Under the pieces are notes generated by a model. It saw only the letters and a program-made list of their open reading frames with translations, was not told the origin of the DNA and did not search any database. Below are positions 1,238 through 21,474 of a DNA stretch of 21,474 nucleotides, one piece after another. Source of the stretch: a virus. The DNA is taken from the IMG/VR virus record IMGVR_UViG_3300034106_000091, positions 1 through 21,474 of that record. One strand, written 5' to 3'. Position numbers and translations under genes: made by a program. The number at the start of each line of letters is the position of its first letter. Within the stretch, counting starts at the first letter, position 1.

Positions 1238-1398
1238 TGTGTTACCTCGTCTGCTGGTAATGGTGTGTTGCCTTCTGCAAGCCATTTTAAATAAGCTTGG
1301 TAGGCTGGGTTGTCAGGGTTAAAGGGAATAATGCCGTGCCACGCACCGTCAATGTACATAACTTGGTCTAATTTATTTTTAACTAATTTGTATTGCAT
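1234..1398 (-). CDS. Small conserved phage protein, 54 aa, fibre-cluster associated
   Basis: A 54-residue protein starting MQYKLVKNKLDQ. It contains IPFNPDNPAYQAYLKWLAEG and then NTPLPAD (about residues 24-50). The element in which F-x-P-x-N-x-x-Y-x-x-Y-L-x-W-L-x-x-G-N is followed by P-x-P-A is a widespread signature of small proteins placed after phage tail-fibre genes, often the C-terminal piece of fibre-associated proteins. The second of two adjacent ATG codons (1396-1398) is chosen, because GGAG stands 5 bases before it and it forms a TGATG junction with the stop of the 274-aa fibre gene. The ATG one codon upstream would form ATGA. Biochemical function is unknown; a fibre-accessory role is inferred. 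Confidence 0.68.
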   Translation of the reverse strand: MQYKLVKNKLDQVMYIDGAWHGIIPFNPDNPAYQAYLKWLAEGNTPLPADEVTQ

Positions 1399-2222
1399 CA
1401 TAGCTCCGCATTAAAAGTTACTCTTAAAGAGGTGTCATTGTTAGCACGAAGTGTAGAAGCCTGTCCTGAAGTTCCACCACTTCCAGAATTAAATCCAAGT
1501 TGAACAGTTTTATTCCCCAGTTGGTCAGCACTTAGGGTTTGTCCAACAGTACCACCTCCACCTAAAGTAACCCAAGTTCCTGTTTTTGATATATTTGGTG
1601 GTATTCTCATAGTTACTGGGTAAGAAAAATATCCTACGCCATCAGCGGTGGTATACCATGCAACGGTATTAATAGATTGATACGCTGTATCCCCACCAAG
1701 TTGATAATAATAACGATAGCAAAGATTTAACTCAGTTCCATAAGGTCTGTAATCAAAGCTAGTAGCTGTAGAGCCTACCTCTAATTGCACATTGCCACAA
1801 GTGCCTGTGTTGAACTCAATGTTAGTGTCTGTTCCCGCAGTAATTGTTCCTGTTATTCCGCTTGCACCAAAGCTACCAGCACCAATCTTGCCTTGTGCTG
1901 TGCCTGTCCACGATAAGACATAAGTACCGCCTTCGGGTAAGTTGGCACCTTCAATGACTTGAATAATAGTACCAGCCGTTATGGTAATTGTGGTATTAAC
2001 ACCAGCAGAGGCTTGTGTAAAGGTATATGTGCCACCGCTTGCACCGCCTTTCCATCTGTCGTGTCCGTAAGAACCTGACGATAAAGAAGTTCCTGAAACA
2101 TAGCCACGCTGATTGATAGTAAACCCGCCATCAATGATTCTGTTCTTGAACCCAAAAGTGCTGTCAGAATTAAATTGGTCGGCTTGGGTTATTCCGTTTG
2201 TGCCGTCTAAGGTTATAGGCAT
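1398..2222 (-). CDS. Tail fibre / receptor-binding-type protein, 274 aa
   Basis: A virion protein that probably forms part of a tail fibre or its tip. The N-terminus MPITLDGTNGITQ is a common attachment-type start of phage fibre proteins. Residues about 24-36 (FGFKNRIIDGGFT) and the following INQRG and HDRWKGG elements are the well-known fibre pattern with K-N-R-I-I-x-G-G and D-R-W. A beta-rich Gly/Thr/Ser part follows, then GNVQLEVGSTATSFDYRPYG (about 143-162) and LCYRYYYQLGG, again a recurring element of phage fibre proteins. No enzyme motif is visible, so binding rather than depolymerase activity is likely. It starts at a TAATG junction with the upstream small gene, preceded by GGAGTCGCA. 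That junction is nearly the same as the one before the 634-aa fibre gene 17 kb away. Confidence 0.8.
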   Translation of the reverse strand: MPITLDGTNGITQADQFNSDSTFGFKNRIIDGGFTINQRGYVSGTSLSSGSYGHDRWKGGASGGTYTFTQASAGVNTTITITAGTIIQVIEGANLPEGGTYVLSWTGTAQGKIGAGSFGASGITGTITAGTDTNIEFNTGTCGNVQLEVGSTATSFDYRPYGTELNLCYRYYYQLGGDTAYQSINTVAWYTTADGVGYFSYPVTMRIPPNISKTGTWVTLGGGGTVGQTLSADQLGNKTVQLGFNSGSGGTSGQASTLRANNDTSLRVTFNAEL

Positions 2223-2233
2223 TATGCGACTCC
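2212..2233 (-). promoter_or_regulatory. Ribosome-binding/start junction before the 274-aa fibre gene
   Basis: The upstream gene ends in Gly-Val-Ala-stop, read as GGAGTCGCATAATG. The ribosome-binding sequence lies inside the Gly-Val codons, and stop and start overlap by one base. The 15-base core (AGGAGTCGCATAATG) is identical to the one at 3113-3127, and 19 of 22 bases match the junction at 19399-19420. Confidence 0.65.
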
Positions 2234-2446
2234 TAACTGTTTTAATTCATCTAGCGTAGTTGCTTGGTCAGCTAGTTGGGTAATATCTCTTAGCCGTTGT
2301 TTTTCAGCTACAATTGCTGTGGTGTCTGCACCCGACTCTAACGCTCTTTGAAACGCTACATCTTGGGCTTGCAATAAAGGTGTACGCTCTGCTCTTAGGC
2401 GGTCTTTGGTAATTGCTTTGGCTTTGTCAAAGTTAATGGTAATCAT
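2222..2446 (-). CDS. Small tail-fibre-associated protein, 74 aa
   Basis: A small, mostly helical protein (MITINFDKAKAITKDRLRAE, then an R-x-x-L-x-D-I-T segment and a TTLDELKQLGVA end). Proteins with the pattern K-x-R-x-x-R-x-P-L-L-x-x-x-D-x-x-F and a later L-R-D-x-T are common beside phage tail-fibre genes and are thought to help fibre assembly or to be part of the fibre base. I cannot assign a tested function. The start at 2444-2446 is preferred, because it gives an ATGA overlap with the upstream gene and has GGGAG about 8 bases upstream. A start five codons earlier at 2461 would overlap the upstream gene by 19 bases. Its last codons, Gly-Val-Ala, contain the ribosome-binding sequence of the next gene. 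Confidence 0.7.
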   Translation of the reverse strand: MITINFDKAKAITKDRLRAERTPLLQAQDVAFQRALESGADTTAIVAEKQRLRDITQLADQATTLDELKQLGVA

Positions 2447-2634
2447 TCTTGGTACTCCCATGCGTTACGGAATGTTCTATCTGAAGGAATATCGCTACCA
2501 TCCACAATTTTGTATGGTTTGCCAGCAGGTACATCTTTAGCGGCAATTTGTTCAATGGTTAAACCACACTCAGGTGCAGGAGTAAGAACAACTACACCGC
2601 CATTATCATTTGGGTAAATTATTAGTTGAGTCAT
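2443..2634 (-). CDS. Small conserved phage protein, 63 aa
   Basis: A 63-residue protein, MTQLIIYPNDNGGVVVLTPA at the start and VPAGKPYKIVDGSDIPSDRT (about 35-54) near the end, followed by FRNAWEY. The element V-P-A-G-x-P-[FY]-K-I-V-D-x-S-D-I-P-x-D-R-x-F-R-x-A-W is a recognisable signature of small proteins in fibre clusters of many phages. The biochemical role is not established to my knowledge. It pairs with the next small helical gene through an ATGA overlap. The pair lies between two fibre genes, which suggests an accessory role in fibre attachment or folding (inference). The start has AGGAAAAATAA upstream, a reasonable ribosome-binding site. Confidence 0.7.
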   Translation of the reverse strand: MTQLIIYPNDNGGVVVLTPAPECGLTIEQIAAKDVPAGKPYKIVDGSDIPSDRTFRNAWEYQE

Positions 2635-2647
2635 TTATTTTTCCTAA

Positions 2648-3115
2648 TTAGCGAAAGATGGCAGCACAAATAACTTCTACATCAATAAAAGAACCGCTAT
2701 CTGCAACCCATGAATTGCAGTAGGCAGATGAAGTATTAGCAGGGCCAACAGCCGAATCTCTGTTGCTATTACTTGCCCCGCCTACTGTTGCAGAAGCAAC
2801 TCCACAATAATTTGCATCAGGCATAGCAGTCGTAAAATTAATTGTGTAAAGCCCAGTCCCTCTATCAGCAACTGTAGTTACATTTCCACTACCACGAATG
2901 GTACAAAACCCACCAGTATTAGTTGTTCCATTAAAGTTTACCCATGCACGACAGCCGTATGCTGTAGCGACTGAGCCATAGCCTGAGTTAAATTGGAGAT
3001 TACCGTTATCAACAGTTACAGCGTTTGTGCCGTTGTTTTGTAGCGTAATTATTCCAGTTGTATCTGCGGTCTGTACTAAACCGCTAGATGTAGATGCGTT
3101 TAATGTGACAGCCAT
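2648..3115 (-). CDS. Tail fibre-like protein, 155 aa
   Basis: A small beta-rich protein. Residues 1-45 are a short fibre-type N-terminal segment (GIITLQNNGTNAVTVDNGNL). Residues about 55-108 carry a recurring phage fibre tip module, with RAWVNFNGT, the TIRGSGNVTTV strand, and YTINFTTAMPDANY. This RAWVNF...NFTTAMPDANY module is widespread at the ends of phage fibre proteins and is probably exposed to the host surface. Five cysteines occur (in YGCRAW, GFCTI, NYCGV, AYCNS and EVICA), which is high for a fibre protein. The start forms a TAATG junction with the upstream 92-aa gene, preceded by GGAGTCGCA. No catalytic motif is visible. A function in host recognition is inferred. Confidence 0.76.
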   Translation of the reverse strand: MAVTLNASTSSGLVQTADTTGIITLQNNGTNAVTVDNGNLQFNSGYGSVATAYGCRAWVNFNGTTNTGGFCTIRGSGNVTTVADRGTGLYTINFTTAMPDANYCGVASATVGGASNSNRDSAVGPANTSSAYCNSWVADSGSFIDVEVICAAIFR

Positions 3116-3127
3116 TATGCGACTCCT
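3113..3127 (-). promoter_or_regulatory. Ribosome-binding/start junction before the 155-aa fibre gene
   Basis: This stretch carries AGGAGTCGCATAATG on the minus strand. It ends the 92-aa gene (Gly-Val-Ala-stop), supplies the ribosome-binding sequence and starts the fibre gene. All 15 bases are the same as at 2220-2234, though the flanking genes differ. Confidence 0.65.
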
Positions 3128-3393
3128 TTAGGATACTTAGCCTTGACCGCCAAGCAGTCAGCAATGTATTTATCAATCTGTGCTTGGTCACCCTTTACTA
3201 CACCATCCAAGTATTCTGTGACATTTGGGTATTCTGCGGCTCTTTTAGCAATATAAGCATGAGCATCTACATAAGCCTGAACTGCGGCTTTATCGTATGC
3301 GACTTCGTTACCATCGGCATCGTAAGCAATGTCGCCTTCAATGACAACAATGTTTGGGTTAAGGTGGTGAATAGCTTTCATTAACTCAATCAT
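3115..3393 (-). CDS. Small tail-fibre-associated protein, 92 aa
   Basis: A 92-residue, mainly helical, acidic protein. Residues 1-40 (AIHHLNPNIVVIEGDIAYD and following) look like a short beta part. Residues 50-90 contain KRAAEYPNVTEYLDGVVKGD, then IADCLAVKAKYPKG. The pattern Y-x-x-x-R-x-x-x-Y-P-[SN]-[VI]-x-[ED]-x-L-D-x-x-x-K with a later A-V-K-x-[KR]-Y-P-K is common to small tail proteins (XkdW-like and fibre-associated families). Its role in the virion or in fibre assembly is not known. It overlaps the upstream 188-aa fibre gene by ATGA and the downstream fibre gene by TAATG. Its terminal codons, Gly-Val-Ala, encode the GGAG ribosome-binding sequence for the 155-aa fibre gene. Confidence 0.72.
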   Translation of the reverse strand: MIELMKAIHHLNPNIVVIEGDIAYDADGNEVAYDKAAVQAYVDAHAYIAKRAAEYPNVTEYLDGVVKGDQAQIDKYIADCLAVKAKYPKGVA

Positions 3394-3956
3394 CCTGCAA
3401 TCTCCATTAAAGTTAATGTTGAATTTGTTGATTCATCGCCTAATTGCGTATTGCTTGAATCATTTGTATTTACCTGACATGACCCACCACCATCAGACCT
3501 ATATTGTAATTTGTAGGTTACAGATGATGTTGTTGATGGAGAATCTATAAATACAATAGTTTGACCACCACCAATAACTCCAGCATTGCTAAATGGTTGA
3601 TAATCCCCCCCATGAGCAATATCAGTTGAATTTCTCAAAAGTCTTATTAAAGCATTGTCGCTTTGTGGGGCATAAATACCATTTAATGAAGCAATAATTA
3701 AAATTCTACTACTAGTTGATGAAGGAGTAATTGACACAGACATCCCTGTCCAATCTGTAAATGTCATTGTTGTAAAACTTATCTGAGTAAAAGTAACAGC
3801 CTGTGCTGGAACCTGAATAACATTACCCACTTTAGGTGATGTAGTTGTAAGAATTGTTCCGCTTACGGCTGGCAAGTCCAATACAGTAGTACCAGCAACG
3901 GCTGGTTCTTGTAGCGTAACGCTTCCGCTAGTTGAGCCTAATAAGACAATAGACAT
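3390..3956 (-). CDS. Tail fibre-like protein, 188 aa
   Basis: Residues 1-40 (GSTSGSVTLQEPAVAGTTVL, then DLPAVSGTILTT) are the familiar repeat unit S-G-x-V-T-L-x-x-P-A-V-A-G-T-x-x-x-x-L-P-A-x-x-G-T found at the N-terminus of many fibre proteins, probably a beta-strand adaptor. Residues 45-188 form a beta-rich domain with SSTSSRILIIASLNGIYA (about 80-97) and a run RLLRNSTDIAHGGDY, resembling tip domains of aquatic-phage fibre proteins. It ends STLTLMEIAG, a usual ending for that domain. The start has AAGGAAAATAT upstream and lies 9 bases after the stop of the 287-aa fibre-like gene. Host-surface binding is inferred; no enzyme motif is visible. Confidence 0.77.
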   Translation of the reverse strand: MSIVLLGSTSGSVTLQEPAVAGTTVLDLPAVSGTILTTTSPKVGNVIQVPAQAVTFTQISFTTMTFTDWTGMSVSITPSSTSSRILIIASLNGIYAPQSDNALIRLLRNSTDIAHGGDYQPFSNAGVIGGGQTIVFIDSPSTTSSVTYKLQYRSDGGGSCQVNTNDSSNTQLGDESTNSTLTLMEIAG

Positions 3957-3965
3957 ATATTTTCC

Positions 3966-4829
3966 TTATAAAACGACCCAGCGACTACCGCTAGGAACAG
4001 TTACTACTACGCCACCATTGATTGTAATGGGTGAAACAGTCGATGCGTTCTTTCCCGTAGGAATTTGATACGAAGCCGTTACGACTTGGCTATTTTCCAC
4101 AAATACTTGGTCACCGCCATTACCTGTTGCCCCACCACCAATTTGTGACCATTTTCCCACTAAATACGAGCCTACAGTTGATGCTGAACCCGATGGGGTA
4201 GTAAGCATGGTGTAAGTAAAGCTAGTGGCATCTACTACAGTAATGCTAAAAGTACCGTTATATTCAACAGGAACAGCACCGCTAACTGTAACAAATGTGC
4301 CTGTAGTCAGGTTATGTGCCGATGCGGTTGTTAAGGTAGCGGTGGTTGTAACACGAGTAATAGAACTAATTGTCTGACCGCTATAGGTTGAATAGCCTTC
4401 AAATTGCTGTAGGGTGGTGTTGTAGCGTATTGAACCTACGGAAGGGGTAGCAGAGCGTTGGGCGGTTGAGCCGTTAGGTAACTTAATTTGACCTGTGCTA
4501 TTGACCGCTAAATTACCCGCCATTGTGGTATCACCAGCAACCGATAGAGTAGAACTACAGGTAACTGCACCAGTAAATGTTGGGGTACTAAATTGCCCAA
4601 AGTTAACCGCATCACCCGTTAGGGTAGCGTTTGCTAGGTTGGTTACTTTGTTGCTGTTAAGGTTTAGTGGCCCTGTCATTGGGGTTTGACCATCTGCCGC
4701 AACCGAATCGGTCATAGCAGAAGCCAAATCGTTCATGGTGTTATTAGCCCATGAGGTCGATATAACTGTTCCAGTTACTACTGGATTGCCCGCTGGAAGT
4801 GTATAAACTCCCGATCCGTTTCTACTCAT
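3966..4829 (-). CDS. Tail fibre-like protein, 287 aa, with inserted FCCH-like module
   Basis: The N-terminus (MSRNGSGVYTLPAGNPVVTG, then SWANNTMNDLASAMTDSVAA and DGQTPMTGPLNL, residues 1-57) is a very common N-terminal module of short-tailed-phage fibre and structural proteins, thought to attach to the tail. A collagen-free beta region follows at 60-150 (FTGAVTCSSTLSVAGDTTMA type). Residues 153-227 form a module of the kind called FCCH-like in phage proteins (TLTTASAH...VTVSGAVP...YNGTFSITV...FTYTML). Its best match in this window is inside the gp10-like protein. Residues 246-287 form a small C-terminal domain ending SGSRWVVL, shared with the 634-aa fibre protein. It starts at an ATGA overlap with the upstream ejection-type gene and leads the fibre cluster. 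Confidence 0.78.
   Translation of the reverse strand: MSRNGSGVYTLPAGNPVVTGTVISTSWANNTMNDLASAMTDSVAADGQTPMTGPLNLNSNKVTNLANATLTGDAVNFGQFSTPTFTGAVTCSSTLSVAGDTTMAGNLAVNSTGQIKLPNGSTAQRSATPSVGSIRYNTTLQQFEGYSTYSGQTISSITRVTTTATLTTASAHNLTTGTFVTVSGAVPVEYNGTFSITVVDATSFTYTMLTTPSGSASTVGSYLVGKWSQIGGGATGNGGDQVFVENSQVVTASYQIPTGKNASTVSPITINGGVVVTVPSGSRWVVL
4149..4373 (-). other. FCCH-like module in the 287-aa fibre-like protein
   Basis: This encodes residues 153-227, the second copy of the module found in the gp10-like protein. It is followed by a GSYLVGKW ending that mirrors GSYTVAKF of the hub copy, so homology extends to the module edges. Confidence 0.7.
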
Positions 4830-15734: not shown

Positions 15735-16133
15735 CTATCTATAGTTAAGTTTTGAATACGCTATTTCAGCAATCTGCCGTTTACGGGCTTCTTGGTCTTT
15801 ACGGCTAAATTCATGGGTTTTTTGCTGTGTAGGCACATCATTGCCGATTTCGACACAGTTATTGCGCTTTAGGTTCTCACGGTGCTTAGAACGGCTAGAT
15901 ACCCATGTGCCGTCTGCCATGCTTATGTGACCCTCTATGTCAGGTATCACCGTTGGGGCTTCCTTGGGTGTCATCTCCAGCTTTGCTTGCCATGCGCTGT
16001 CAGCTTCTTCGCCCTCAAAGGGTAGATTCCAATAGGCTAGGTACTTTTCACGGTCATCAAACTTGCTTTGGTCATATTCTTCGTGATCGACCTTGCAATG
16101 CGGGCATTTAACGGTGACTTTGACTAAAGCCAT
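15735..16133 (-). CDS. Small conserved phage protein with N-terminal CPHC motif, 132 aa
   Basis: Residues 10-13 are CPHC, followed by His17. This may be half of a zinc site, but no second CxxC pair follows. Residues 63-99 contain IPDIEGHISMADGTWVSSRS and KHRENLKRNNCVEIGND. The pattern S-x-x-D-G-x-x-[IV]-x-S-R-S-x-H-R-x-x-L-x-x-x-x-C-[IV]-E-[IV]-G-N-[DE] recurs in small proteins encoded between portal and capsid genes of many podophages, with no tested function known to me. The C-terminus is a charged helix. It starts at a TAATG junction with the glycosyltransferase-like gene, with AAGGAG six bases upstream. A role in head assembly is a positional inference. Confidence 0.7.
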   Translation of the reverse strand: MALVKVTVKCPHCKVDHEEYDQSKFDDREKYLAYWNLPFEGEEADSAWQAKLEMTPKEAPTVIPDIEGHISMADGTWVSSRSKHRENLKRNNCVEIGNDVPTQQKTHEFSRKDQEARKRQIAEIAYSKLNYR

Positions 16134-16885
16134 TACATTCTCCTTATGATGTCAGGTAATTGGTCGTATTCTTCGGGTCTAAGTAGGCAAACGCTGTCGT
16201 ACCAGCGGGCATTCTTCCACCGCCAGCAGACAAACTCCTCTTTAGGTAGCAAAACCACGCACTTTAAGCCCAATGCGCCAGCTAAATGCGCTGTTCCTGT
16301 GTCTACGGTCACAATTCCCTTCATCGCCTTCATATGCGAGGCGGTTTGCACCCAGTTTTTCTTCCATCCATCGTCAGGCAGGGGGTGAAATAGCCCATCG
16401 GAGTTAGGATTTAGGCTATAAGCGTCATCACCGACCAGTTCTGCCATGTGTCGGTAGTCAATTGACTTGATGTAGTACAGGGTTTGCTTGCTTGCTTCCC
16501 AATTTACCCCGATCTTGGGCGGGATATTGCTAGGCAGGGCGTGTAAATAGCCTTCTGAACCCACAATCTTCTTACGGGTCACGGGGAACATAGCCTTGAC
16601 TAGCGGGTGGGATAACGAAATATAGTACGGGAGCGACATCGAGCCTATCCAGTAGTCTGATTGGGTTGCCGCACCCTCTGTTAAGTCATTACTAAACACA
16701 TCTACGCTGTGTAATTGACCTAAAAGGTGGTGAAGTGTGCCTTCCTGTAAGACTACGACCTGCTTTGCGCCTAACGCTTTTAGGGCAGGTAGGAATCGGG
16801 CAAACATTAGGATGTCACCAAACCCTTGCTCCATCTGTACGGTGATAGATTTATTGATTAATGGTTCACCTCTCCATACGGGCAT
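16133..16885 (-). CDS. Glycosyltransferase-like protein (TPR/GT9-type C-terminal domain)
   Basis: From its first ATG the protein has 250 residues. Residues 3-45 (VWRGEPLINKSITVQMEQGF, GDILMFARFLPALKALGAK), 194-206 (VDTGTAHLAGALG) and 219-232 (VCWRWKNARWYDSV) match the glycosyltransferase part of bacterial TPR-glycosyltransferases related to heptosyltransferases (GT9-like). The EQGFGD and VDTGTAHLAG elements are the characteristic nucleotide-sugar-side motifs. The likely role is transfer of a sugar to a virion protein or a host surface glycan, but substrate and activity cannot be read from sequence. The frame stays open upstream to 17047 and continues the family there, so this ATG, which has no ribosome-binding sequence, is probably not the true start. 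It lies between the 161-aa gene and the CPHC gene in the head module. Confidence 0.78.
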   Translation of the reverse strand: MPVWRGEPLINKSITVQMEQGFGDILMFARFLPALKALGAKQVVVLQEGTLHHLLGQLHSVDVFSNDLTEGAATQSDYWIGSMSLPYYISLSHPLVKAMFPVTRKKIVGSEGYLHALPSNIPPKIGVNWEASKQTLYYIKSIDYRHMAELVGDDAYSLNPNSDGLFHPLPDDGWKKNWVQTASHMKAMKGIVTVDTGTAHLAGALGLKCVVLLPKEEFVCWRWKNARWYDSVCLLRPEEYDQLPDIIRRM

Positions 16886-17047: not shown

Positions 17048-17508
17048 TCATCGTCAAGTTCCTCTTGGCGTTTGGCTTCCATTACTCGCAATTGCTCTTG
17101 AATGAGATATTGCTGGTGTCTGTAAGCTACTGCCTCAAGGATGTTATCCCGTTGTCTTTCAAGGTAGCTTATAGACCGCTGTAAATCTAGTGTATCGTCT
17201 GACGGTATATCAGCCTTAACCTCTTGTTTGGATTGTACTTTAGCTTTCTTAACTTTTGCAACAGGCGTTGGATCAATTTGTTCCTTAAACGCTTGCTTGC
17301 GTTCTGCTTTAGCGTCTTTGGTTGCTTGATCTAGTTTGCGCTGTCTTTCCGCTATCTTTGCGGATAGCTTGCGTAAGCGTTTTAAATCATCCTCAGTCCA
17401 TGTCGCATCATCGCCACCAGCTTTTGTATCTGTGGGTGTAGGCGGTATATAGATTTGGAACGCATTTACTTGAAACGCATTAGCTTGGAAAGCGGTAGCA
17501 AAACTCAC
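17023..17508 (-). CDS. Small charged protein with N-terminal NAFQ repeats, 161 aa
   Basis: Residues 4-19 contain three copies of an A-F-Q-x-[NY] unit (TAFQANAFQVNAFQIY). Residues 38-75 and 105-155 are charged, helical coiled-coil-type segments (DLKRLRKLSAKIAERQRKLD; LERQRDNILEAVAYRHQQYL), joined by a Lys/Pro-rich linker. The protein ends in five leucines. NAFQ-type repeats occur in other phage proteins, but I cannot name the function. The start is a GTG (17506-17508) forming a GTGA overlap with the stop of the fibre gene, with only a weak GGGTAG upstream, so it depends on coupling. Its position between fibre and glycosyltransferase suggests the three travel together. It could be a fibre chaperone or adaptor (inference). 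Confidence 0.65.
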   Translation of the reverse strand: MSFATAFQANAFQVNAFQIYIPPTPTDTKAGGDDATWTEDDLKRLRKLSAKIAERQRKLDQATKDAKAERKQAFKEQIDPTPVAKVKKAKVQSKQEVKADIPSDDTLDLQRSISYLERQRDNILEAVAYRHQQYLIQEQLRVMEAKRQEELDDEAALLLLL

Positions 17509-19409
17509 AGAACTACCCAGCGTGACCCACTCGATACAGTCACAGTCTGACCGCTTGCTACCGTCATTGGCCCAGCACTCATAGCACTTGACCCACTTGG
17601 AATCGTATAGCTTGCCGATACAGTGTTGCTGTTTACGACTATGCCGTTAGTGGCGTTTAAGACTGTTCCATTTACTGTATTTGGTGCAGTTCCACCAATA
17701 GCAGGGGGGCTAGATAAATCTAATGTACCGCCAAGCGTTAAGTTGCCTGAAGATGTAACCGTACCGCTAAGACTAATACCTGATACCGTACCTGTACCGC
17801 CTACGCTAGTAACTGTGCCTGATCCCTTGCTATTAAAGGTAGTCCAATCTGTACTTGTAAGGTATCCGTTTACGCTACCAGTTGCGGCAGGCATAGCAAT
17901 TGTTGGAGTTGTTCCACCTGTGCTAGTAATAGGGCTTGTTGCACTTACAGAATTAACATAAGTTCCAGCAGGTTGTTTACCGTTAAAAGTATTCCAATCT
18001 GTGCTTGATAAATAGCCGTCTGTGCTTGTTGTTGCTTGGCTAATGCTGATAGCTGGGGTATTCCCACCACTAGAAGCAATAGGTGCAGTTCCGCTTACAG
18101 AAGTTACTGTACCTGTTGTTGGAGTTGTCCAAGTAGGTGTTGCACCTGTACCTGCGGATGTAAGAACTTGACCTGCCGTGCCTTGGCTACCATCAAATGA
18201 TGCTGTGCCTGTAAGTTCTAGGTTTACCGTATGCAATGTTCTGCCAAAAAAGCCATCACGCCAGTTTCTACCGTTTGTTCCTATGTCTTTTGCATTATTA
18301 GCATTTGGCTCTAAATCAGAAATAATCCTAGCCCTTACATCCAATGTATCTGCATTAGAAAACCCCAATGTAGAATTATTGTTTACAGTAAGGCTTTCAG
18401 CAGTCAGGGCATTTACGCCTGTTACGCTACCTGTATCGTCAACAATGACTAAACTGTTTTGAATCAATTTGCCAGTAGTCAAGTCGTAACGAGCAATAGC
18501 GTTATCGGTTGCGGAAGCAGGGCCAACAACATCACCGCCCAAAGATGGGCTAGTGTTGGTAATAGTAAAGTTAGGATAAGTGCCACTTGTGCTGATTCCT
18601 GTACCAGCGTTTAAAACAACGGTTTGGTCGGGGGCTGAGTTAGTAATTACACCTGTACCTGAAACATAACTAATGCCAGTTCCAGCACTTACAGAAGCCC
18701 TAGCCCGTGCATCCGTGTAGTAAAGGTTTGTACCTTCAGCAATATTGGTCGTGGTTAATACGACTGCGCCTGTCTGCCCGTTGACCGAGGTTACCGTTTC
18801 GGTGTTATCAACCTTCTGCCAAACAGTTCCGTTATATACCGCCCAATCGCCCACAAGCCAATCAGTAATCCCATCAAGGTTAGTATTACCAGCAACGCTG
18901 ACAACATAGTAATAACCTTTAGTACCAGTAGAGGAAGTAAGAGTAGGGGTGTTAGTGCTTGCATTCCAAGTTCCTTGATAGCTAAGTGCGCCTAAGACTG
19001 CGGCAGGAAGTTCAGAAACAGGTACTTTACCGCCAGCATCTAGGGTAGCAACACCGTTAGCCGATCCAGCATTCCTAGTCGATGCCGTGCCTAGTCCCGT
19101 AATGTCTGTATTGGGAATAGTCGAGGATGCAGTCAGGGCAGTAGTTCCTGCGCCCTTGACATAGCCTGTCAGGGTTGTTGCCCCTGTACCGCCATTGGCT
19201 ACGCCTAGCGTACCTGTGACATTGGATGCAGGGATAGTCACCCCGCTAATTGTTCCACCCGTAATGGCTACCGCATTGGCATTTTGCTCTGCCATCGTGC
19301 CAAGCCCAGTAAGGGTATGGTCAGCATTCCAATCGGATGGCTGTACTAGGGTTGAATCCCCAGCGTCAGGTATTGCTGAAGTCTTACTATGCTTAACTGT
19401 TATAGGCAT
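17505..19409 (-). CDS. Large tail fibre-like protein, 634 aa
   Basis: A Thr/Gly/Ser-rich beta-type protein. Residues 1-60 are an N-terminal module with SDWNADHTLTGLG. Residues 63-115 hold NVTGTLGVANGGTGATTLTG, a very common fibre repeat. Residues 139-220 carry a fibre domain with GALSYQGTWNASTNTPTL, GYYYVVSVAG, WLVGDWAVYNGTVWQKVDN and SVNGQTGAVVLTT. Residues 225-300 are strand repeats (DARARASVSAGTGISY). Residues 433-479 and 484-529 are two tandem units with [ST]PI[AT]S[ST]GG and DGYLSSTDWNTFN-like ends. Residues 593-634 form a small C-terminal domain ending SGSRWVVL, shared with the 287-aa protein. The likely role is host-surface attachment. It is unusual in lying directly after the portal gene, with which it shares a TAATG junction. 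Confidence 0.82.
   Translation of the reverse strand: MPITVKHSKTSAIPDAGDSTLVQPSDWNADHTLTGLGTMAEQNANAVAITGGTISGVTIPASNVTGTLGVANGGTGATTLTGYVKGAGTTALTASSTIPNTDITGLGTASTRNAGSANGVATLDAGGKVPVSELPAAVLGALSYQGTWNASTNTPTLTSSTGTKGYYYVVSVAGNTNLDGITDWLVGDWAVYNGTVWQKVDNTETVTSVNGQTGAVVLTTTNIAEGTNLYYTDARARASVSAGTGISYVSGTGVITNSAPDQTVVLNAGTGISTSGTYPNFTITNTSPSLGGDVVGPASATDNAIARYDLTTGKLIQNSLVIVDDTGSVTGVNALTAESLTVNNNSTLGFSNADTLDVRARIISDLEPNANNAKDIGTNGRNWRDGFFGRTLHTVNLELTGTASFDGSQGTAGQVLTSAGTGATPTWTTPTTGTVTSVSGTAPIASSGGNTPAISISQATTSTDGYLSSTDWNTFNGKQPAGTYVNSVSATSPITSTGGTTPTIAMPAATGSVNGYLTSTDWTTFNSKGSGTVTSVGGTGTVSGISLSGTVTSSGNLTLGGTLDLSSPPAIGGTAPNTVNGTVLNATNGIVVNSNTVSASYTIPSGSSAMSAGPMTVASGQTVTVSSGSRWVVL
17823..18113 (-). 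repeat. Two tandem protein-level repeats in the 634-aa fibre
   Basis: This segment encodes residues 433-529 of the fibre protein, made of two units of about 47 residues. Each unit opens with a T-V-x-S-V-S-x-T-x-P-I strand, has [ST]-S-G-G-[NT]-T-P-[AT]-I, and ends with [DN]-G-Y-L-[ST]-S-T-D-W-[NT]-T-F-N. Such units are frequent in phage fibre shafts, and copy number often differs between relatives through recombination. Confidence 0.7.
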
Positions 19410-19420
19410 TATTGAACTCC
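19399..19420 (-). promoter_or_regulatory. Ribosome-binding/start junction before the 634-aa fibre gene
   Basis: The last codons of the portal gene, Gly-Val-Gln-stop, read GGAGTTCAATAATG on the minus strand. GGAG therefore acts as the ribosome-binding sequence and TAATG joins stop and start. The 22-base segment differs at only 3 positions from the junction at 2212-2233 before the 274-aa fibre gene, including the first codons (Met-Pro-Ile-Thr). Confidence 0.65.
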
Positions 19421-21474
19421 AATAATCTTACCGTCTTGTCCTCTAACCACAGTCTTAGGCTGGCTAAGTTTGTCTAGCAATGTAGCCAACATCTGCGCTA
19501 ATTGCTGGTTGCTCATCTGCATACTCTCGATTGCGGGTTGTAGTGGGTGGTTTTTCATATCGGAATATCCTAATTGGTCTTGCAAAATGTTAGCCATTTG
19601 TACATTGTCAGCGTAAGCCGCCTCGCCCGTGTCTAGTCCTGCCGTAATACGGGTGGTTTCTATCTTAGCCGCATTGTTGAGGTAGGCAAGTAACAGTTCC
19701 TTGTTATTGCTGGAATCCATCTTGGTCTGCTCCAAGTCCATCTCCATCTGCATCTGCTGACGGTTACGCTCATCCTCAAGCTGGAACTTAAGCTGGTTCT
19801 CTTGGGCTTGGTACTCCTGTTTAGCCTTCTCCAGTTCAATCTGACCCTGAATCTTAGCCTGTTCAATCTGCTGTTGCATCTGCATCTTCTGTGCTTCTGC
19901 TTGCATCTTGGCTTGCTCGATCTGCATCTGCATTTCCATCTTCTGTTGTTCAGGGCTAGGTGGCTTGGGTTGTCCTTCTGCCATCTTCGCTTGCTCACGG
20001 AACTTGTCAGCGGTTTCGTCAATCATGCCCTCTAAGCCTTTACCAGCCTTAAATGCGGTGACACCAAACTTCAGCATCTCGACCAACATAGGGGTAAGTT
20101 CAGGTGTCATTTGTGCCGCTGGTACTGCTTGCGATAAGAACCCACTCATAGCGGATAGGAACTCTAGACGGTCAGCCTTTTCCTGCTGTTCGTCTTGGAA
20201 TATCATCGAGTCGCTGGTCACCTCAACACGGAAGTTCTTAGCGGATTCGTTACGCAATAAGGCTAAAGCTTGTGGGATTAATTGCTGATCCTGTGGGCTT
20301 AGTTGCATTGCACCACTGATCTTAACGATGGTGTCATCGGTAAAGTGGTTGCAGATAATCTGCGCCTTGATGCTCAAGAGTTCTGTAGCAAAGTCTACGA
20401 CAGCGTGTTGCATGGTCTTTAATCGACCTGCCGCATTGTTAGACTTGATAATCTGTGCGCCAAGGGTTTCATTGGGGTCTGTCTGTCCACGCTGAATATC
20501 AGCGATACCCATAATCTCGTAGATTTGACCCTTAACCTGATCCATTGCCTGATACGACATCTGCAAGGCACTAGCTATTGGGGCAATATCCACAAGGTTA
20601 ATAGCCCCCATCATTCCACCCTTCTCACTGAAGGCGGCATAGTTCTTAACAGGAATCAGGGTATTGTTCTCACCCTCGGAGAACAAGCGGGCAAGACTTG
20701 GTTCGGATGCGTCATAGACACCCCGTACTTTCAGGGCGTTAATGAAGCCATCTATGCGGTCAGCCAGCGTGTCTAACTGCTTGGCTTGGTCTTGGTATAG
20801 AACAAAGTCAGGAATCGGCTCTAGCTTGTCTGTAGTCAGTGTGGCATACAGTGGTTTAGGGCAAGGCCAAAAGTTCTCAAGCTTTAGCGGGTCAGGGCGT
20901 GTATCAAGTATCTTACCTAGTGACTTAGAAATCCAAAGCACCTCGCCCGATGTCTTATCCCAAATCTCATAGATAACGGCTTCGGATGCGCCTTCACCCA
21001 TCTTTTCGTTGAAAGTTTTAGAAGTTTCAGGTTTTGTGTCTAGGGGTATCTTGTTACCCAGTTCCTCACCAAAACGCTCGACCAAGGCAGGGCGTTCCAT
21101 GTAGACCTTACGCCATACAGCGGTTACCTCTTGCCATGTGCGGGCAATTGTGTGACCGAAGTCACGCCAATAAACATAGTCGCATGGCGCACATTCGTAT
21201 TCAATGCGCTCTTGATCCTCACGGTAGATACCACCTTCGGTTTCAGCTTCGTCTGTATCCTCAGTTACTTGTAGCCCATCTTCGGGGATGCCAGCCTCTT
21301 TACCAGCAATGTGTGGTTCGTAGCGTACCCATGATGTACCACGCCCACCAAGCAAACGGTCTAAGACCGACTGACTCATGGCAGACTTGTAGTCACCGTA
21401 ATGGGTAATCTCATAGTCCAATGCCCGTTCAAGCATCATCGATGCCACCCGTGCTACTGGGTCATTATCTCTGA
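19409..21474 (-). CDS. Portal protein, P22-like (5' end outside the window)
   Basis: The reading frame is open to the right edge of the window. Translation from there begins RDNDPVARVASMMLERALDY, so the GTG at 21446-21448 is an internal Val and the true start lies outside. Visible family traits are CDYVYWRDFGHTIARTWQEV, WISKSLG, FWPCPKPLYATLTTDKLEPI and PDFVLYQDQAKQLDTLADRI. Later come YQAMDQVKGQIYEIMGIADI, followed by QRGQTDPNETLGAQ, a portal signature. Counting from that Val, residues 499-577 are a Gln/Met/Glu/Lys-rich coiled coil, followed by a helical tail to residue 679. A long helical C-terminus recalls the barrel of the P22 portal. The dodecameric portal is the head entrance for DNA and the base for the gp4-like ring. 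The gene ends Gly-Val-Gln-stop, embedding the ribosome-binding sequence of the next gene. Confidence 0.88.
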   Translation of the reverse strand, partial: RDNDPVARVASMMLERALDYEITHYGDYKSAMSQSVLDRLLGGRGTSWVRYEPHIAGKEAGIPEDGLQVTEDTDEAETEGGIYREDQERIEYECAPCDYVYWRDFGHTIARTWQEVTAVWRKVYMERPALVERFGEELGNKIPLDTKPETSKTFNEKMGEGASEAVIYEIWDKTSGEVLWISKSLGKILDTRPDPLKLENFWPCPKPLYATLTTDKLEPIPDFVLYQDQAKQLDTLADRIDGFINALKVRGVYDASEPSLARLFSEGENNTLIPVKNYAAFSEKGGMMGAINLVDIAPIASALQMSYQAMDQVKGQIYEIMGIADIQRGQTDPNETLGAQIIKSNNAAGRLKTMQHAVVDFATELLSIKAQIICNHFTDDTIVKISGAMQLSPQDQQLIPQALALLRNESAKNFRVEVTSDSMIFQDEQQEKADRLEFLSAMSGFLSQAVPAAQMTPELTPMLVEMLKFGVTAFKAGKGLEGMIDETADKFREQAKMAEGQPKPPSPEQQKMEMQMQIEQAKMQAEAQKMQMQQQIEQAKIQGQIELEKAKQEYQAQENQLKFQLEDERNRQQMQMEMDLEQTKMDSSNNKELLLAYLNNAAKIETTRITAGLDTGEAAYADNVQMANILQDQLGYSDMKNHPLQPAIESMQMSNQQLAQMLATLLDKLSQPKTVVRGQDGKIIGVQ

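Follow-up and report, generated by a model that had tools for sequence, protein, structure and literature searches.

Two of three near-identical gene junctions in a viral genome fragment appear to be places of repeated fibre exchange, whereas the third appears to be inherited with the portal gene in front of it. The DNA analysed was an IMG/VR virus record of 21,474 bases, referred to throughout as the window. Taken as a whole, our best explanation, to which we assign a probability of about 0.6, is that the shared sequence is a coupled start, inherited at 19409 and marking a fibre-exchange edge at 2222 and 3115, with intronless homing as a fitting driver. The junction geometry, downstream turnover, break positions, endonuclease placement, and occupied and empty sites beneath this reading are direct observations on sequence; our confidence is reduced because the motif is general and the link between its spacer base and fibre type is weak in a wider scan.

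The main genes of the window lie on the minus strand in the order portal, a 634-amino-acid (aa) fibre-type gene, capsid and tail genes, and then small genes alternating with fibres, with some gene names being our own reading of the sequence. Three GGAG-N5-TAATG junctions, with starts at 2222, 3115 and 19409, are each followed by a fibre-type gene:

19409..21472, minus strand: portal gene (phrog_12082), running off the window end
19407..19420, minus strand: coupling junction 3; GGAG, spacer TTCAA, TAATG; portal C-terminus GKIIGVQ
17505..19409, minus strand: 634-aa fibre-type gene behind the portal, starting MPITVKH (PHROGs comparison)
3115..3393, minus strand: 92-aa gene (phrog_9114), constant upstream gene of joint 2
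3113..3126, minus strand: coupling junction 2; GGAG, spacer TCGCA, TAATG
2648..3115, minus strand: 155-aa fibre gene, starting MAVTLNAS (phrog_11355), apparent exchanged side of joint 2
2222..2461, minus strand: 79-aa gene, probably 74 aa from 2446 (phrog_20196), constant upstream gene of joint 1
2220..2233, minus strand: coupling junction 1; GGAG 2233-2230, spacer TCGCA, TAA 2224-2222, ATG 2222-2220
2199..2222, minus strand: first 24 bases of the fibre gene, doubling as an HNH gene start in relatives; empty insertion site after base 2199
1398..2222, minus strand: 274-aa fibre gene, starting MPITLDGTNG (phrog_4492), apparent exchanged side of joint 1

PHROGs comparison assigned the 274-aa and 155-aa genes to tail fiber and the 634-aa gene to tail or unknown-function families. 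The fibre-type proteins at 3966-4829 and 17505-19409 (minus strand), which otherwise differ, have in common a C-terminal stretch ending SGSRWVVL. The small gene before 2222 measures 79 aa from its first ATG; the ATG at 2446, which overlaps the stop of a 63-aa gene, would yield 74 aa, probably the right length. At 2443-2446 (minus strand) that 63-aa gene, ending DRTFRNAWEYQE, overlaps the probable 74-aa start as ATGA, and the pair recurs in relatives.

At all three junctions GGAG stands 7 bases ahead of an ATG whose A is also the last base of the upstream TAA, giving an overlapping stop and start with a Shine–Dalgarno sequence at usable spacing. The initial annotation had described Gly-Val-x protein ends, GGAG and TAATG before fibre-type genes, and we see them at every junction (upstream C-termini ...LKQLGVA, ...KYPKGVA and ...GKIIGVQ). 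Its sequence identities also proved correct: by direct comparison, the minus-strand 22-mers at 2233-2212 (GGAGTCGCATAATGCCTATAAC) and 19420-19399 (GGAGTTCAATAATGCCTATAAC) differ at three positions, and the 15 bases 2220-2234 are identical to 3113-3127 (the 22-mer at 3126-3105 is GGAGTCGCATAATGGCTGTCAC). Allowing up to three mismatches, the 22-mer occurs three times in the window and in 0 of 100 dinucleotide shuffles; GGAGTNNNATAATG is likewise present three times, and its backwards control is absent.

The motif itself is a generic translational-coupling start in phages. A scan for the pattern WAGGAGTNGCATAATG gave 123 matches in 120 viral stretches, among the matches listed (one reading of the scan took 80 of the 120 stretches, a later one all 120). 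Among these listed matches, 103 of the 123 lie between open frames on both sides and are thus gene junctions, with downstream genes that, judged by eye, are fibre-like in about 30 cases and non-fibre in about 73, and on this count a fibre-only motif was rejected. Within the window, a non-fibre pair at 15735-16885 (minus strand; 250-aa and 132-aa genes) is likewise joined by TAATG behind AAGGAG; the gene at 15735-16133 starts in this way, so TAATG is not confined to fibres even there. The shared Gly-Val-x end arises because GGA-GTN-NNN-TAA-TG, with its Shine–Dalgarno sequence and spacing, must read Gly-Val-x-stop. Peptide conservation was rejected as its cause in the small genes, as behind another small gene of this group an almost identical run of bases is read in a different frame (GAGGAGTTAGCATAATG, ending EELA). 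At the portal, peptide conservation does explain the Gly-Val-x end, the glycine codon in 74 relatives being GGA in 44, GGG in 16, GGT in 10 and GGC in 4. With GGAG in the last codons, an ATG 7 bases on and one base in common with the stop, a ribosome finishing the upstream protein could restart on the next gene. Such coupled translation would resemble termination–reinitiation coupling (PMC6728339 and PMC10666635), with which the junctions share a one-base stop/start overlap and a Shine–Dalgarno sequence inside the upstream gene.

To follow what stands behind each upstream gene, we used protein scans with 80 loci kept each, those for the 74/79-aa, 92-aa and 155-aa genes being the best 80 of those listed; the resulting 74/79-aa table holds 80 loci (one without a stop) and the 92-aa table 80. 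Pair, cluster and endonuclease-neighbour statistics cover the loci below L396 plus the window, with junctions 95% alike merged; pairs and loci have common ancestry, so p-values are optimistic. Among the matches listed, what comes after the 74/79-aa gene varies from contig to contig between several fibre types, HNH genes, and holin-like and other small genes, and the successors of the 92-aa gene likewise vary widely. When upstream ends with 80% identity or more are paired, a different downstream gene is found in 92% of 389 pairs for the 74/79-aa family, 58% of 928 for the 92-aa family and 64% of 14 for a 59-aa family (motif-defined families, used for these figures as BLAST clustering lumped the 63-aa with the 79-aa genes), compared with a median fraction of 0.15 over 55 gene-end clusters. 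Even at 95% upstream identity the downstream gene still differs in 9 of 12 (74/79-aa) and 80 of 196 (92-aa) pairs. Where similar upstream sequence gives way to unrelated downstream sequence, about 75% of 357 pairs (74/79-aa) and 87% of 539 (92-aa) have their break no more than 20 bases from the stop. At joints 1 and 2, then, unrelated genes are exchanged with the break at the sequence, and these comparisons support 2222 and 3115 as places of repeated fibre exchange. Each marks the left-hand limit of a fibre cassette open to exchange, in which the fibre is replaced behind a small gene that stays in place, with the break near the stop and start. Relatives of the 74/79-aa gene among named phages have less than 60% identity (11 records).

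The junction at 19409 behaves differently and, from comparison of portal relatives, appears to be inherited with the portal C-terminus. In the portal table (74 of 80 loci, six cut-off matches being left out), TAATG is present in 68 of 74, and the gene after the portal is a fibre of the same N-terminal family in 68, an HNH gene in 4 and something else in 2. Unrelated downstream starts among similar portal ends make up 10 of 243 pairs with BLAST clusters; by motif definitions they number 0 of 232 (GKI, which omits ends followed by HNH genes) versus 5 of 244 with those ends included; at 95% identity the narrower motif gives 0 of 58. Exchange of unrelated genes at the sequence is thus not what is seen at 19409, and its likeness to the other two copies is most likely convergence, not a duplicated cassette. 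Portal relatives among named phages are all below 60% identity (10 records); in genome_contigs, consulted with the host in mind, 10 stretches match a pattern and none is a relative.

The initial annotation had read all three junctions as possible joints for fibre swapping and had named coincident breaks in relatives as the check. Its interpretation is partly supported overall: repeated exchange near the junction, with breaks within 20 bases of the stop in most exchanged pairs, holds at 2222 and 3115, but 19409 is not a swapped joint, the same fibre family having been kept in 68 of 74 portal relatives.

Part of the upstream sequence may accompany the fibre. In loci fetched by protein similarity, the leader GGRGTNGCATAATG stands before fibres behind five upstream clusters. 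Its core, GG[AG]GTNGCATAATG, is found at 39 of 538 merged TAATG junctions, again in five upstream clusters; a fibre follows in 38 of the 39 (33 called by pattern, 5 by eye), and an HNH gene with a fibre start in the remaining one. In these loci, with some genes assigned by eye, the spacer TNGCA behind GGRG occurs before fibres and not before non-fibre genes that have GGRG in the same place. The initial annotation had held that its reading would be refuted if the same junction were equally frequent before non-fibre genes in related phages; outside this group, among viruses at large, this is what is seen, whereas within the similarity-fetched loci the longer leader precedes only fibres and the single HNH gene with a fibre start. 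The variable spacer base, a synonymous position of the upstream valine codon, reads A before 24 of 27 type A fibres and C before all 10 type B fibres, an agreement of 34 of 37 (within-upstream-family permutation p=0.0012) from which the window's 3115 junction departs. The link is weak in the wider pattern scan (among the matches listed, type A 8 of 8 with A, type B 6 with A and 6 with C; p=0.04), and 24 non-fibre junctions from the scan's first 80 stretches, with an A or C spacer base and G or C after the ATG, show no link to the next codon (p=1). The leader also tracks the upstream gene, as 74/79-aa genes with the end IEVK retain GAGGTGAAA although the genes behind them vary. These patterns suggest that the leader can move with the fibre, though not always.

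Homing-endonuclease-like genes occupy the same edge. Seven endonuclease queries find matches in 71 of the 4960 genes in these loci, and 8 of 9 representatives carry homing-type domains, with one GIY-YIG match just below the cut-off. Counting distinct neighbours, a fibre comes next after 28 of 41 endonuclease-like genes versus 438 of 3112 other genes, with fibres called by pattern, loci chosen around fibres and the background drawn from those loci. Most exchanged junctions in the 74/79-aa and 92-aa tables, among the matches listed, are without an endonuclease. At relatives' equivalents of 3956-3966 (minus strand), the joint between a fibre ending ..RWVVL and one starting MSIVL.GSTSGS also holds endonuclease-like genes (L166, L184, L264, L270 and L314).

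One HNH gene, found in relatives and without a copy in the window, opens with the same 24 bases as the window's fibre (ATGCCTATAACCTTAGACGGCACA), an in-frame fusion to the 8 initial codons of that fibre type, and its 3' end, CATGGAG-N7-ATG, overlaps the start of the following fibre. In L089, at 3262-3771, it encodes a 170-aa protein with an HNH domain (Pfam HNH_3, E=1.4e-11), and a scan with the gene gave 33 loci. In nine of these the HNH DNA is 98.6-100% identical behind three upstream genes whose own DNA is 23-28% identical between them. Across those upstream genes the 14 bases before the ATG are 50% identical, and the change lies in the leader; the 24-base start is 92% identical in L516 (two synonymous differences) and 100% in the other eight. 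A tenth locus, L524, has HNH DNA 90-91% identical and a different fibre behind it. Empty sites matching the occupied ones are seen in the window and in other loci that share its fibre start but lack the HNH gene. Furthermore, two HNH contigs (each counted as two loci) have the same 38 bases across the junction as the window despite a different upstream gene. Distant HNH relatives are located elsewhere, many without a fibre behind. Related HNH genes in L157, L159, L190 and L266 open with in-frame copies of the initial codons of four other fibre starts, and their last codons carry GGAG or GGGG 7 bases before the next fibre's ATG.

As driver we propose intronless homing by HNH and GIY-YIG/NUMOD-type genes placed preferentially before these fibres: the HNH gene would use the fibre's own start, and its 3' end would supply GGAG-N7-ATG to the next fibre. 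Enzyme activity, and cutting as the cause of fibre swaps, we infer from these arrangements. A bolder version, which we regard as doubtful, is that an HNH homing family recognises conserved codons (DGT|NG) at fibre starts and lands without breaking translation, its C-terminal NHG codons forming the next Shine–Dalgarno sequence, and that cutting and repair replace the downstream fibre, which would make a selfish gene a main motor of fibre turnover in these phages.

The strongest competitor, itself rather unlikely, invokes convergence and selection only: coupled starts are common, and joints at gene edges survive since both genes stay whole, with no handle or special driver. It accounts fully for the 19409 copy and accords with the generality of the motif (103 of 123 listed pattern matches at gene junctions, about 73 non-fibre by eye) and with the same exchanges being served by other leaders too, but not with the fibre association of TNGCA behind GGRG in these loci (some assigned by eye) or the enrichment of endonuclease genes at the same place. 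Improbable in our view is that the 14-base leader acts as a recombination handle, its identity alone guiding exchange. Upstream homology running through the ATG and downstream homology beginning near GGAG do overlap in the leader; however, most exchanged pairs match only in part over the leader (0.50 in HNH pairs across upstream genes), and exchange is also seen with other leaders. Exchange at the junction would likewise be consistent with endonuclease cutting, or with selection in favour of joints that leave both genes intact. Past duplication of one fibre cassette within the genome, also raised by the initial annotation, is very improbable as the origin of the three junctions: there are three copies in one window, two with MPIT starts, but the 79-aa and 92-aa families are without profile similarity, the fibres differ in N-terminal type and relatives retain the portal junction.

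The idea that short conserved sequences mark the boundaries of phage modules was put forward by Clark et al. 2001 and by Susskind and Botstein 1978, as cited in the passages of PMC3029335 considered here. The exchange edges at 2222 and 3115 share with that proposal a short common sequence; here, however, that sequence is itself a widespread start signal and matches only in part between exchanged pairs. In the portions of PMC2988022 and PMC10448857 covered, the genes of free-standing phage homing endonucleases, of HNH and GIY-YIG type, adjoin genes that are structural or essential, and in T4 the mobE start falls within a UAAUGA overlap; PMC10448857 already reports homing genes at exchange boundaries. 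The genes described here likewise lie beside structural genes, but the HNH gene is fused in frame to the fibre's first 8 codons and its 3' end carries the next fibre's start signal. The word 'fiber', in that spelling, is absent from the main text of PMC10448857 as covered, and the titles, abstract openings and passages searched describe no homing gene that is fused to the start of a fibre and re-supplies the start of the next one.

How phages exchange receptor-binding fibres without damaging the operon is an old question. In this family of junctions the exchange edge can be located to within roughly 20 bases for most pairs that exchanged, a coupled start forms the joint, and endonuclease genes are found there with matched empty and occupied sites. 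Together, these make a homing-driven model of fibre exchange directly testable.
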